Assembly: GCA_902762785.1 (NCBI GenBank)
Contig: CACWPL010000025.1
Location: 1 to 44,508, forward strand
DNA length: 44,508 nt
Direction of reading: 5' to 3'
Origin: an uncultured Ruminococcus sp.
GTDB lineage: Bacteria > Bacillota > Clostridia > Oscillospirales > Ruminococcaceae
The notes beneath the pieces were generated by a model. That model was not told where the DNA came from. It saw only the letters and a program-made list of their open reading frames with translations, and made no database searches. Positions 22,540-44,347 of the stretch are shown piece by piece; position 1 is the first letter of the stretch; each line of letters begins with the position of its first letter. The position numbers were made by a program, and so were the translations under genes.

Positions 22540-22962
22540 TCACAGCGTCTTGTCCATGCGGATGTGCGGGCAGAACTCGTCCATGTAGACCTCGCCCTGC
22601 GGCACATAGCCGAGCGAGCCGTAGAAGCCCTGCACCCGGCACTGTGCGGAGACGGTCGTCCGCAGCGCGCCCTTGGCACGGACGGCCTCCTCGGCCGCCT
22701 GCATCACGCGTGCGCCCAGATGCGCCCCGCGGTGTGCCTTGTCGATGACGACGCGTCCGATGTGCCAAAGGTCGGCATCGTCCGCGTCACGGTACATCCG
22801 TGCCGCCCCCACGACGGTGTCCCCCTCGTAGAGCGCCAGATGCAGACAGGCATCGTCTACATCGTCGAACTCCACGGAAAATCCCTGTTCATCAAGGAAA
22901 ACGCCCGCACGCAGCGCCCTTGCGCCCTCTGTCAGCACCTCGCTGACCTCGACCCGGTACAT
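22540..22962 (-). CDS. GNAT-family N-acetyltransferase
   Basis: 140 residues. The acetyl-CoA signature is IGRVVIDKAHRGAHLGARVM (V-x-x-x-x-R-G-x-x-L/G), preceded by TVVGAARMYRD and followed by QCRVQGFYGSLGYVP. Early part ARALRAGVFLDEQGFS resembles the ElaA/YjcF-like branch, whose substrate is not settled. The start ATG shares a base with the stop of the ATPase gene (TGATG), so it is translated by coupling with the transporter; this hints at a substrate brought in by it, which is inference. Confidence 0.8.
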   Translation of the reverse strand: MYRVEVSEVLTEGARALRAGVFLDEQGFSVEFDDVDDACLHLALYEGDTVVGAARMYRDADDADLWHIGRVVIDKAHRGAHLGARVMQAAEEAVRAKGALRTTVSAQCRVQGFYGSLGYVPQGEVYMDEFCPHIRMDKTL

Positions 22963-23687
22963 CACAGCACCTTCGAGAGGAACTCCCGCAGGCGGGCGTC
23001 CTTGGGAGCATTGAAGAAGGCCTGCGGCTCGTTCTCCTCCACGATCCTGCCGCCGTCCATGAACATGACGCGGGAGGCCACCTCACGGGCAAAGCCCATC
23101 TCGTGCGTCACGACGACCATGGTCATGCCCTCCTCGGCGAGCTCGCGCATGAGGCTCAGCACCTCGCCGACCATCTCCGGGTCGAGCGCCGAGGTCGGCT
23201 CGTCGAACAGGATGACGTCCGGGTCCATCGCCAGCGACCGCGCGATCGCGATGCGCTGCTTCTGGCCGCCGGAGAGCTGTCCGGGGTACTGCTCGGCCTT
23301 ATCGGGGAGCCCTACCTTCTTCAGGAGCGCGTCCGCCTTCTGGTCGGCGGCCGCCTGGTCCATCAGGCCGAGCTTGACGGGCGCGAGGGTGATGTTCCGG
23401 CGGATCGTCAGGTGCGGGAACAGGTGGAAATGCTGGAACACCATGCCCATCTTCTCGCGGACGGCGCAGAGCTCCTTGTTGTTCATGGCCGTGAGGTCCC
23501 TGCCCTCGAAGGTGATGGTGCCGGCGGACGGCTCCTCTAGGCGATTCAGGCAGCGCAGGAAGGTGCTCTTGCCGGAGCCGGACGGCCCGATGATGACGAC
23601 GCGCTCGCCCTTCTCGATCGTCGTGGTGATGCCCTTGAGGATGTGCAGGTCGCCGAAGGACTTCTCTAAGTTAGTTACCTCGATCAC
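22962..23687 (-). CDS. Polar amino-acid ABC transporter, ATP-binding protein
   Basis: 241 residues from GTG 23687, chosen because AAAGGAGG stands about 10 bases before it and the protein then begins [12 protein letters not shown] as is usual. Walker A is [10 protein letters not shown]-loop [13 protein letters not shown] signature LSGGQKQR, Walker [15 protein letters not shown] and the switch His in [10 protein letters not shown]. The sequence is of the GlnQ/HisP class. It overlaps the permease gene by 17 bases. Confidence 0.94.
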
Positions 23688-24375
23688 TTTTCGCGAGCCT
23701 CCTTTCGAGCAGTGTGACAAGTCGGCTCAGGATCATGACCATCGCCAGATAGATGAGCGCGACTGCGAACAGGGGCAGGAACGCCTCATAGGTCGCGCTG
23801 CGGATGATGTCGCCGCCCTTGGTCAGGTCGTTGAGGGCGATGTTGCCGGCAACGGACGTCTCCTTGAGCAGCACGATGAACTCATTGGCGAGCGCCGGCA
23901 GGATGTTGCGGAAGGCCTGCGGCAGGATGATGAAGAGCATCGTCTTGGGATAGCTCAGACCAAGGCTCGCGCCGGCCTCGAACTGGCCGTTGTCGATGGA
24001 CATGATGCCCGAGCGGACGATCTCGGCCACATAGGCGGCGGAGTTCAGTCCGAACGCCATCACGGCCACGAAGATCTTCGAGACATTGAAGGACGCGAAG
24101 ATGACGAAGTAGATGATCATGAGCTGCACGAGCACAGGCGTGCCGCGGATCACCGTGAGGTAGACACGCGCGAGGGCATCGAGGATGCGGAGCTTGCCGG
24201 TCTTGTCATGGGTCGAACGGATGATGGCCAGCAGAAAGCCGAGCACGATGCCCAGCAGCGAGGCGAAGAAGGTCACGATCAGCGTGATCTTGAGACCGTT
24301 GGTCAGGTAGGTCCAGCGGTCGCCCTCGATGAAGGTGTCGTGCAGCTTCTGGCCGAAGCCTCCCATCATGTACAT
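23671..24375 (-). CDS. Polar amino-acid ABC transporter, permease
   Basis: 234 residues with five hydrophobic segments. The N-terminal pattern [22 protein letters not shown] and the EAA loop ([20 protein letters not shown]) mark the HisM/GlnP class. A frame start at 24399 lies in the upstream gene; ATG 24375 with GGGTGG upstream is the better start. Works as a homodimer or pair with the ATPase and the permuted binding protein coded upstream. Confidence 0.92.
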
Positions 24376-24388
24376 AGGCGCCACCCGA

Positions 24389-25177
24389 TCAGTCCGCACG
24401 GACGATGATGACCTGCGTGGTCGTGGCGTAGCCCTGGGAGAAGTCGACGTTCTTGAGGCGCTCCTCCGTCACGGACATGCCGGCCACGCCGACGTCCGCC
24501 TTGCCGGAATCCACGGCAGCGATGATGGAATCGAAGGCCATGTCCTCGATGACCAGCTCCATGCCGAGCTTGTCACAGACGGCCTGCATCATGTCGGGGT
24601 CGATGCCGACCACGGCATCGCCGGACTTGCTCTCATAGGGCGGGAACTCGGCGTTCGTCGCCATGATGAGCTTGCCGGTGCGCTCGACATCGGGGTCGGG
24701 CGTGTAGGAGACGCTGTCCGCGGTATCGCCGACCCAGTGGGAGACGATCTCGTCGAGGGTGCCGTCGGCCTTGAGCTCGTCGAGCGCCTTGTCGATCTTG
24801 TCGCCGAGCTCGCTGTTGCCCTTCTTGTAGGCGATCGCGTACTCCTCGACGGCGAACGGGTCGTCCAGGATCTGGAGACCGGCGTTCTTGGAGACGAAGA
24901 CATTGGCCGGCTCGCTGTCGATGATGACGGCGTCGGCCTTGCCCTGGAGCAGCGCCTGCACGGCGTCCGCGCCCTTGTTGTAGCCCTCGACGGTCGCGCC
25001 CTCGATGTCGCCGGCGAAGATGTAGCCGGTGGTGCCGAGCTGGCAGGCGATGGTCTTGCCGGTGAGGTCATCGGCGGTGTGTACGGTGTTGGCCGGGACG
25101 CCGGCGCATCCGGTCATCGCGGCGATCATCAGTCCGGCAGCGGCGAGCGCGGCCTTGCGTCCAAAGTGTTTCATCAT
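24389..25177 (-). CDS. Circularly permuted amino-acid ABC binding lipoprotein (SBP family 3)
   Basis: 262 residues. A lipoprotein signal (hydrophobic core, then AAMTGC, Cys about residue 24) precedes the part DDLTGKTIACQLGTTGYIF ... ALLQGKADAVIIDS ... YAIAYKKGNSEL ... LDELKADGTLDEIVSHWVG, which in ordinary family-3 proteins is the second half. After a 15-residue linker (DTADSVSYTPDPDVE) comes KLIMATNAEFPPYE ... VGIDPDMMQAVCDKLG ... GKADVGVAGMSVTEERLKNV, which is ordinarily the first half, ending QVIIVRAD, exactly where the ordinary protein crosses into lobe 2. So the order is swapped, with new ends at a hinge strand. ATG 25177 has AAAGGGA upstream at 6 bases. Specific amino acid unknown. Confidence 0.88.
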   Translation of the reverse strand: MMKHFGRKAALAAAGLMIAAMTGCAGVPANTVHTADDLTGKTIACQLGTTGYIFAGDIEGATVEGYNKGADAVQALLQGKADAVIIDSEPANVFVSKNAGLQILDDPFAVEEYAIAYKKGNSELGDKIDKALDELKADGTLDEIVSHWVGDTADSVSYTPDPDVERTGKLIMATNAEFPPYESKSGDAVVGIDPDMMQAVCDKLGMELVIEDMAFDSIIAAVDSGKADVGVAGMSVTEERLKNVDFSQGYATTTQVIIVRAD

Positions 25178-25230
25178 GTTCATTCCCTTTCATGTGCGTG
25201 ACCCATGCCGGAGGACAGGGCCCTTGGATG

Positions 25231-25470
25231 TTTGATAGACAGTCTCTCCCTAGAGAGACGCAGTCTGTCAAAAAAGTCGTTTTTCTAGGCGGCTTCTCCC
25301 CACCCCCCCTGCCCCCCGCCCCCAGGGGCGGGGGGGGAAAATGGCGGCGCTGCGCGCCGCCGCCGCTTTTCCGCCGCCTTACGGCGGCGGTATCAACAAG
25401 CGTCAAATAGTAAAAGTGAGGTTTTTCGACAAGCTGAGTCTCTCCCTAGAGAGACGATACATCTATCATT
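25231..25470. repeat. MITE-like element with imperfect inverted ends and GC-rich hairpins
   Basis: About 45-bp ends (left from 25231, right to about 25470) are imperfect inverted copies: each contains the 18-bp palindrome GTCTCTCCCTAGAGAGAC (25242-25259 and 25438-25455) and a nearby CTGTC/GACAA plus A/T run. Between them are a long C/G hairpin (CCCCCGCCCC/GGGGCGGGGG, about 25312-25338), a GGCGGCG/CGCCGCC block and CCGCCGCC/GGCGGCGG (25371-25390). No frame is convincing. It lies between the binding-protein gene and its promoter, so it is transcribed as part of that leader. Confidence 0.6.
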
Positions 25471-43964: not shown

Positions 43965-44000
43965 AAAAAGTGCCCGGCAGGCAGCGAGCCGCCCGCCGGG
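43965..44000 (-). terminator. Terminator of rnpB
   Basis: Minus strand: CCCGGCGGGC and TGCCTGCCGGG around GGCTCGC, followed by CACTTTTTG. Imperfect stem, so partial readthrough is plausible. Confidence 0.65.
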
Positions 44001-44002
44001 TC

Positions 44003-44347
44003 GTGACCAGACCGATAAGCCGAGTTCTGTCGTGTGCGATAATTTATCTAGGCCTGCCGTCGCCGACAGGCTCGAGCCGCCATTACCGGGTCCGTCCGCC
44101 GAGCAGACGTTGACGGTCGGTACCAATAGGCGTTGCATCGGATAGGGTTTACACGGCAGTGCAGTCTCCTGCACTCCGGTGAGCTCTTACCTCACCATTC
44201 CACCATCGCCGCAAAAAGCGGCAGTCTCTTTTCTGTTGCACTAGCCCTAAGGTCGCCCTCGGCTGCCGTTAGCAGCTATCCTGCTCTGTGATGCTCGGAC
44301 TTTCCTCGTGAACTAAAGCGTCCACGCTATCGCATAGTCTGCTCACA
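44003..44347 (-). ncRNA. rnpB: RNase P RNA
   Basis: About 345 nt. Conserved RNase P blocks occur in order on the minus strand: GAGGAAAGTCCGAGC near the 5' end, GGTAAGAGCTCACCG in the middle, and ACAGAACTCGGCTTAT near the 3' end, just before the terminator. The flanking helices fit the bacterial type. It removes 5' leaders of tRNA precursors with the RnpA protein. The promoter is perfect (44354-44382). The 3' boundary is set by the end of the CTCGGCTTATCGG element and is approximate. Confidence 0.95.

Follow-up and report, generated by a model that had tools for sequence, protein, structure and literature searches.

Can an amino-acid binding protein of an ABC importer carry its two lobes in swapped order along the chain, and what becomes of its hinges, its ligand pocket and its lipid anchor if it does? 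This question is raised by a gene for a substrate-binding protein (SBP) in a 44,508 bp stretch of genomic DNA from an uncultured Ruminococcus sp., the whole of which was analysed and is hereafter called the window. The answer that we consider highly probable is that the gene encodes a lipid-anchored, circularly permuted amino-acid binder of an ABC importer, and that the chain order of such proteins has switched repeatedly, most likely by tandem duplication.

Chain order of the window protein

The SBP open reading frame lies on the minus strand, starts with an ATG at 25183 and ends with TGA. In the span 24389-25177 of the original prediction the gene itself was correctly recognized, while position 25177 is a later in-frame ATG than that at 25183. 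The encoded protein belongs to SBP family 3 by profile score (PF00497, 121.2 bits, cut-off 26.4). Pfam matches it in two stretches, and in the genome these parts stand in swapped order: profile positions 85-131 lie at 24910-24728 and are followed by profile positions 1-95 at 24670-24386, in place of the canonical succession of lobe-1 half, lobe 2 and lobe-1 C-terminal helices. All 13 NCBIfam SBP models among the matches listed (TIGR01096, GlnH, ArtJ, HisJ and others) score below their cut-offs, the best being TIGR01096 with 129.1 against 256.35. The family and PDB matches listed for the window protein contain no MglB and are all of family 3 or related type II proteins; the type I fold related to MglB, which characterizes Type Ic / Cluster Bc, is not that of the window protein.

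The window protein matches 112 PDB sequences (phmmer), 60 of them among the matches listed, and its halves are in swapped order in all three PDB alignments displayed. Residues 4-96 of E. coli glutamine-binding protein (GlnBP, PDB 1ggg) align with residues 171-263 of the window protein, 93 residues each. In the alignment to a GlnBP reference sequence, the first half of which agrees with the 1ggg coordinates, window residues 32-152 correspond to GlnBP 99-222 and residues 171-264 to GlnBP 4-97, the latter without a gap. Among the 60 of 112 PDB matches listed, the tandem GlnPQ SBD1-SBD2 (6h30) is alone in having both halves covered by its best stretch. In it, query residues 37-258 correspond to residues 105-325 of the chain, collinearly from one domain into the next, which is how tandem domains are expected to match a permutant. 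The two domains of GlnPQ are themselves complete, canonical and unpermuted, and the protein is a model for a tandem intermediate.

We divided the family into three segments, each represented by a small profile: S1, the lobe-1 N-half; S2, lobe 2; and S3, hinge 2 with the lobe-1 C-terminal helices. Canonical family 3 proteins have the order S1-S2-S3 with their ends on lobe 1, whereas the window protein has S2-S3-S1 (and type B proteins, described below, S3-S1-S2) with the ends on lobe 2. The swapped Pfam stretches, the swapped PDB alignments and the mapping on GlnBP bear out the circular permutation, and the collinearity with ordinary family 3 proteins that would have spoken against it was not found. 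We therefore regard the permutation as confirmed at the level of sequence. The window protein is, on the same grounds, a permuted variant of SBP family 3 (PF00497; GlnH/GlnBP, ArtJ, AncQR) and no ordinary member: both halves are of this family, the equivalents of its ligand clamp are present, and the operon partners are alike.

The AlphaFold2 model of the window protein, computed from an alignment of 50 sequences (the window protein and 49 relatives), has a pLDDT of 92.1 and a pTM of 0.82. Foldseek keeps the chain order and is hence little informative for the model of a whole permutant; it ranks the GlnPQ tandem first and gives no query-normalised TM-score above 0.45 among the 50 chains listed, so that none of these shares the linear order of the window protein as a whole. 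As a consequence of these low order-keeping scores, the identity of the whole fold with that of GlnBP rests on sequence and predicted structural elements.

Table 1. Features of the SBP gene and its surroundings (window coordinates; residues are those of the window protein).
Feature	Position	Strand	Basis or remark
SBP family 3 lipoprotein, circularly permuted (type A), 264 aa	24389..25183	-	Pfam, PDB and GlnBP alignments
Signal peptide and lipobox cysteine, residue 26 (...AAMTGC)	25106..25183	-	sequence
Lobe-2 part, residues 34-110, GlnBP ~101-180, including QLGTTG	24854..25084	-	alignment
Hinge 2, residues 111-115, GlnBP 181-185, within strand 111-120	24839..24853	-	model, alignment
Lobe-1 C-terminal helices 116-152 and new linker 153-170	24674..24838	-	model, alignment
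Lobe-1 N-half, residues 171-251, GlnBP 4-84	24431..24673	-	PDB match, alignment
Hinge 1, residues 252-256, GlnBP 85-89	24416..24430	-	PDB match, alignment
Last lobe-2 strand, residues 257-264, QVIIVRAD = GlnBP 90-97, new C-terminus	24392..24415	-	alignment, model
Amino-acid ABC permease	23671..24375	-	PF00528 84.8 bits; TIGR01726 73.4 against cut-off 42.2
Amino-acid ABC ATPase, GlnQ-like	22962..23720	-	PF00005 141.3 bits
Two copies of palindrome GTCTCTCCCTAGAGAGAC	25242-25259 and 25438-25455 (within 25241..25456)	.	upstream of SBP gene

Cut site, hinges and ligand pocket

GlnBP is described as consisting of a large domain (5-84 and 186-224) and a small domain (90-180), with hinges at 85-89 and from 181 onwards (PMC13229503, in part). 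Mapped onto this frame, the window chain passes from the lobe-2 part through hinge 2, the lobe-1 C-terminal helices, a linker, the lobe-1 N-half and hinge 1 to the last lobe-2 strand, an order that we call type A. The linker connects the old C terminus to the old N terminus (mean AlphaFold2 pLDDT of 94 in block 151-160 and 97 in block 161-170). The cut is located inside lobe 2, eight residues beyond hinge 1, in the loop that connects the strand after hinge 1 with the first lobe-2 helix (GlnBP 97/99). Lobe 2 is now composed of residues 34-110 and 257-264, with lobe 1 (116-251) as the inserted lobe, and both termini are, by this mapping, on lobe 2. The original prediction had put the new ends precisely where the chain crosses from lobe 1 into lobe 2, whereas the chain continues to GlnBP position 97, within lobe 2; its proposal that the lipid anchor has moved to lobe 2 agrees with the mapping of the ends. 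The lipobox cysteine C26 is invariant in the 50 aligned permuted proteins and stands 11 residues before the first lobe-2 helix (helix 37-40 in the model).

Because hinge 1 (252-256) and hinge 2 (111-115) are both internal to the chain, both crossings between the lobes are retained. The model likewise has one unbroken strand (246-262) through hinge 1 and another (111-120) at hinge 2, both continuous in its DSSP assignment, so that the two lobes are joined by two hinge strands. A single remaining crossing, as originally supposed, is ruled out by the hinge segments mapped inside the chain and by these modelled strands, and the argument for changed opening dynamics, which had been built on the loss of a crossing, falls with both crossings kept.

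Residues F180, F217, A234 and R242, equivalent to F13, F50, A67 and R75 of GlnBP, are invariant in the 50 aligned sequences, and so is D89, the equivalent of D157. We take R75 of GlnBP (R242 here) to clamp the alpha-carboxylate of the ligand and D157 (D89 here) its alpha-amino group. By alignment, the window protein possesses the equivalents of all residues considered for an alpha-amino-acid clamp (R75, D157, F13, F50), and the conservation of R242 and D89 suggests that its ligand is an alpha-amino acid.

Operon partners and neighbouring DNA

The SBP gene is adjoined by genes for a HisM/GlnP-type permease and a GlnQ-type ATPase, the partners of a polar amino acid importer, and their Pfam and NCBIfam scores agree with the earlier view that both are ordinary. 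The permease frame is open from a GTG at 24399, which overlaps the stop of the SBP gene; the ATG at 24375 is the likely start. For the ATPase, the best NCBIfam model is GlnQ, with 307 bits under the equivalog cut-off of 379. An acetyltransferase gene is next after the permease and ATPase genes, downstream of the SBP gene.

Upstream of this gene the palindrome GTCTCTCCCTAGAGAGAC occurs in two identical copies; no others were found in the whole assembly at up to two mismatches, and the two possibly represent a pair of operators or hairpins. A scan of the window and 12 relatives for RNA elements that could give a clue to the ligand returned no riboswitch or T-box at gathering score at the SBP gene. 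One T-box, in locus L074, sits downstream of the operon. The window also contains an RNase P RNA of class A at 44000-44345 on the minus strand.

Recurrence of the permuted order

Of 37 genomes from the same genus, 21 (counting the window's own) have a full-length collinear match to the window protein, and the matches in the other 20 are 43-81% identical to it. Outside the family the same order was found in one of 24 genomes from other families of the order, and phylum-wide (398 genomes, E <= 1e-38) in three carriers besides the window's genome, one of which (L064) is outside the class. Among the best 80 of at least 485 relatives in named genomes, the order is S2-S3-S1 in 80 of 80 loci. A permease lies at most 3.5 kb downstream or is fused in 78 of these 80 (71 within 700 bases, three at about 2.4 kb, four fused), and an ATPase is present in 76, the remaining loci stopping at contig ends. 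Two of the 80 loci, L108 from Ruminococcus sp. Marseille-P6503 and L144 from Lachnospiraceae bacterium G11, have titles without the words MAG or uncultured. The impression voiced in the original prediction, that similar proteins occur in other Clostridia, was thus well founded, and the search that it proposed recovered the same order next to HisM/GlnQ genes.

Within the genus, permease and ATPase are adjacent in only 10 of the 21 loci, and for 11 of them (L013-L018, L020-L024) the search of about 1.5 kb downstream revealed no permease. Permuted SBPs without a nearby permease may serve a distant importer, act as orphan receptors or have some other role. The window protein itself is a real, conserved and probably functional permuted binder.

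Three cyclic orders

All three cyclic orders of the segments exist: the canonical S1-S2-S3, type A with S2-S3-S1, and type B with S3-S1-S2. The open reading frames in the collected loci, counted with duplicates of one gene, comprise 149 of the order S2-S3-S1, 68 of S1-S2-S3, 36 of S3-S1-S2, four tandem forms and five others. Type A is the order of the window; in its variant A' the cut is one helix later (GlnBP ~108-112; L049, L165, L170), and in type B it is ahead of the hinge-2 strand (GlnBP ~166-172; L146, L163). All cuts mapped on GlnBP, those of A, A' and B, fall in lobe 2. For a type B protein, no PDB chain but 6h30 is collinear by sequence among 60 of 65 matches listed. Locus L168 (G300) has, near the end of the stretch and on the same strand as its A' gene, a second SBP3 frame (S1-S2, 200 aa) that is perhaps partial.

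In a survey of 157 genomes of the order, the core of the window protein written twice served as query and types were assigned from the match starts. The 150 matches listed consist of 104 canonical, 16 type A (including A'), 16 type B, 12 tandem and two partial ones, numbers that are not family-wide rates as the doubled query favours the window's subfamily. The 12 tandem matches were called by query span, with few of them read, and the two partial ones have canonical-like ends. Type A or B occurs in at least 31 of the 157 genomes among the matches listed, and the 32 permuted matches listed all begin at A or B places and none in lobe 1. With a doubled type B query, 26 of 245 genomes gave matches, mostly of type B; four A' (G147, G234, G113, G167), one canonical and one tandem form were also among them. 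Open frames of more than 1000 aa that match the doubled query are present in G038, G130, G175 and G092 and are possible intermediates.

A permease follows 16 of 16 A' frames and 33 of 35 informative type B frames (duplicates of one gene included); of the two type B exceptions one is fused to a permease and the other, L212, is without a permease in the stretch. Eight type A loci (L011, L042, L043, L063, L089, L093, L109, L117) and one of type B (L210) contain in-frame SBP-permease fusions, in which the importer is consequently tied through lobe 2. A single canonical SBP is fused to a permease in L252, and in L055, L060 and L061 two or three consecutive SBP3 domains are joined to one another and to a permease; it is possible that these tandem fusions are intermediates of permutation. 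Different orders also stand side by side: L180 (G025) has a type A gene with two canonical genes behind it, and in L259 (G164) a canonical operon lies beside a type B operon. The single-contig genome G278 contains both a type B gene and a divergent type A gene (L164). The protein of L164 is a highly divergent type A-like form on a long branch and was excluded from two of the three trees described below.

Switching between the orders

For phylogenetic analysis all rows were reordered to one chain order before tree building, and 226 distinct rows unpermuted in this way were thinned to 120 (at 70% identity for type A, 82% otherwise). The careful tree comprises 99 rows, without eight long or odd rows (L164_A, L024_A, L180_can, L248_can, L248_can_2, L244_can, L175_A, L247_can), 10 type B rows and three A' rows. 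It requires 13 order changes among canonical, A, A' and B, a count that is blind to gain versus reversal and comes from a tree with many weak deep branches; its well-supported branches force at least six changes for canonical, four for A, four for B and two for A'. Quick trees of 120 and 119 rows again require 13 changes, the minima of the 119-row tree being five for canonical, two for A, four for B and two for A'.

Several of the changes fall between close relatives. In the 99-row tree the type A protein L041 pairs with the canonical L178 (support 100/99) and the A' protein L049 with the canonical L186 (100/85), and the type B protein L163 is placed within the clade of L001, the window genome's own canonical SBP (100/100). 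The clade of A' and type B contains no canonical member in our set, and some of the permuted clades are deep ones with members in many families.

L254, the operon of L041 (type A), and L253, the operon of L178 (canonical), agree in the order and orientation of their SBP, permease and ATPase genes, with permeases 67% and ATPases 76% identical, and in L255 (type A') and L256 (canonical) the identities are 75% and 82%, the ATPase values covering 162 residues. Genes beyond these three are unmatched in the stretches compared; the matched operons likely descend from one place. Weaker pairs are L259 (type B) and L260 (canonical), with 53% for the permease and 72% for the ATPase, and L261 (type B) and L260, with 56% for the permease. 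For L257 (type B) and L258 the permeases are 77% identical over 108 residues, the canonical SBP of L258 having been missed in gene picking. As similar permeases and ATPases are found beside different SBP orders, similar permeases evidently pair with either order. Permutation appears to have recurred inside a single family, where it separates close relatives whose operons match.

Function and origin of the permuted forms

Order, cut position, conservation, operon and recurrence were computed; ligand class, transport and the duplication route are inferred. After permutation the predicted fold is preserved, as are both hinge strands and, by homology to GlnBP, the R242/D89 clamp for the amino acid. 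An alpha-amino acid would be bound between the lobes and the protein would close; the closed SBP would then dock on the permease of the adjacent gene, with the GlnQ-like ATPase driving transport. Ordinary closure and docking are assumed because neither hinge strand is interrupted. Lobe 2 now bears the anchor and, in some relatives, the permease as well. The permuted forms most likely originated by tandem gene duplication or tandem SBP fusion with subsequent loss of the outer pieces, a route suggested by the existence of tandem forms, by the linker that joins the old ends and by the A' forms with their extra helix.

Whether the switches brought any benefit can be read in different ways. Under neutral topological drift tandem copies would be frequent, cuts that keep the fold would be tolerated, and orders would flip without benefit; we give this reading an even chance. 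It accords with the tandem-type matches (12 of 150 listed, by query span), with the arrays of SBP genes in L180 and L259 and with permeases and ATPases that remain similar where the order differs, but less well with the confinement of the cuts found to one lobe and with the depth of some permuted clades across many families. Alternatively, permutation may have been selected, the anchor or fused permease pulling on the other lobe and thereby altering the orientation of the protein or the delivery to the permease. We consider such selection doubtful, even though the permuted proteins mapped on GlnBP, with three distinct cut sites among them, all have both ends on lobe 2, the 32 permuted survey matches listed start at A or B places and not in lobe 1, nine permuted permease fusions are known (eight of type A, one of type B), and tethering has already been raised for TpMglB-2 (PMC4990184, in part). 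Permease fusions likewise occur with canonical SBPs, both tandem (L055, L060, L061) and single (L252), lipobox-like cysteines also occur in the canonical proteins read, and the similar permeases that accompany both orders show no advantage of either; moreover, only two lobes exist, and the cut sites may simply tolerate breaks.

The permuted proteins might also be chimeras of two paralogues, with the lobe-2 part of one and the lobe-1 part of the next, since deletion within a tandem pair would unite pieces of both copies. The best canonical relatives of the two halves differ in nine of the 13 permuted proteins tested, the window protein among them, and the score ranks of the halves correlate poorly in L064 (0.17), L170 (0.22) and L162 (0.30). 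Against this, both halves share one best canonical relative in the other four (L041, L049, L064 and L163, with half identities of 81/66, 73/78, 40/40 and 66/47%), and the ranks correlate at 0.60-0.81 in 10 of the 13, which leaves a chimeric origin improbable. The differing relatives of the halves, together with the same-genus genes that lack a permease, make our preferred explanation slightly less certain and a chimera slightly more probable. An assembly error, a frameshift or a misread ordinary gene, for which the 62 contigs of the window's assembly could be adduced, has a negligible probability and is ruled out by the repetition of the order in all 80 loci kept from other assemblies, including L108 and L144, and by the single-contig genome G278 with its type B and divergent type A genes; nor did the check for such errors proposed in the original prediction indicate any.

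Relation to known permutations

Circular permutants of SBPs have reportedly been engineered for sensors, to judge by the title of Clifton et al. 2017; there the same scaffold is permuted by design and artificially, whereas the present case is natural. Among natural proteins, OpuAC and ProX are said to be permuted relative to each other. The CPSARST study, as far as its accessible text goes, supports permutation for glycine betaine-binding proteins and reports such relations also among molybdate-binding proteins and CysB, at identities below 24%, with OpuAC and ProX named in its reference list only (PMC2395249). The word 'permut' is absent from the OpuAC paper PMC2861598. The CPSARST cases resemble ours as natural permutations among binding proteins of similar overall structure (PMC2395249, in part), but ours is recurrent and concerns close relatives in matching three-gene operons.

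A further natural case is TpMglB-2 (Tp0684), a type I protein that binds glucose and is permuted, with relatives known from treponemes and Gram-positive bacteria; it was classified as 'Type Ic / Cluster Bc', and its authors suggest tethering as a possible reason for the permutation (PMC4990184, in part). It shares with the window protein the natural permutation and the lipid anchor, and itself still binds its ligand and changes conformation (same source). In contrast, TpMglB-2 is of type I with a sugar ligand, a fourth crossover has been added, and its permuted part is 13% identical to EcMglB (PMC4990184, in part), whereas the proteins described here are of type II and family 3, with unchanged crossings, halves that reach 81% identity to a canonical relative and several cut sites. 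Natural permutation is known in other SBP families; for SBP family 3, none of the titles and abstract starts listed in our searches of the open PMC library reports it.

The annotation of such proteins gives little warning: Pfam calls the window protein SBP_bac_3 well above cut-off, and only the coordinates of the two stretches betray the order. Known natural permutations of binding proteins link distant proteins, as described in the accessible parts of PMC4990184 and PMC2395249, whereas here the operons are 67-82% identical in permease and ATPase. Such natural matched pairs open to study the origin of permutation by duplication and trimming, the effect of the anchored lobe on an ABC importer, and the influence of chain order on opening dynamics. 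It is conceivable, though we hold it only tentatively, that this family of Clostridia is topologically unstable, that three orders arose in it and perhaps reverted many times, with the termini shifting from lobe 1 to lobe 2, and that tethering or fusion through lobe 2 was favoured while the permeases changed little. If true, such a family would be a natural replicate experiment, with ordinary, permuted and tandem forms preserved in living relatives.
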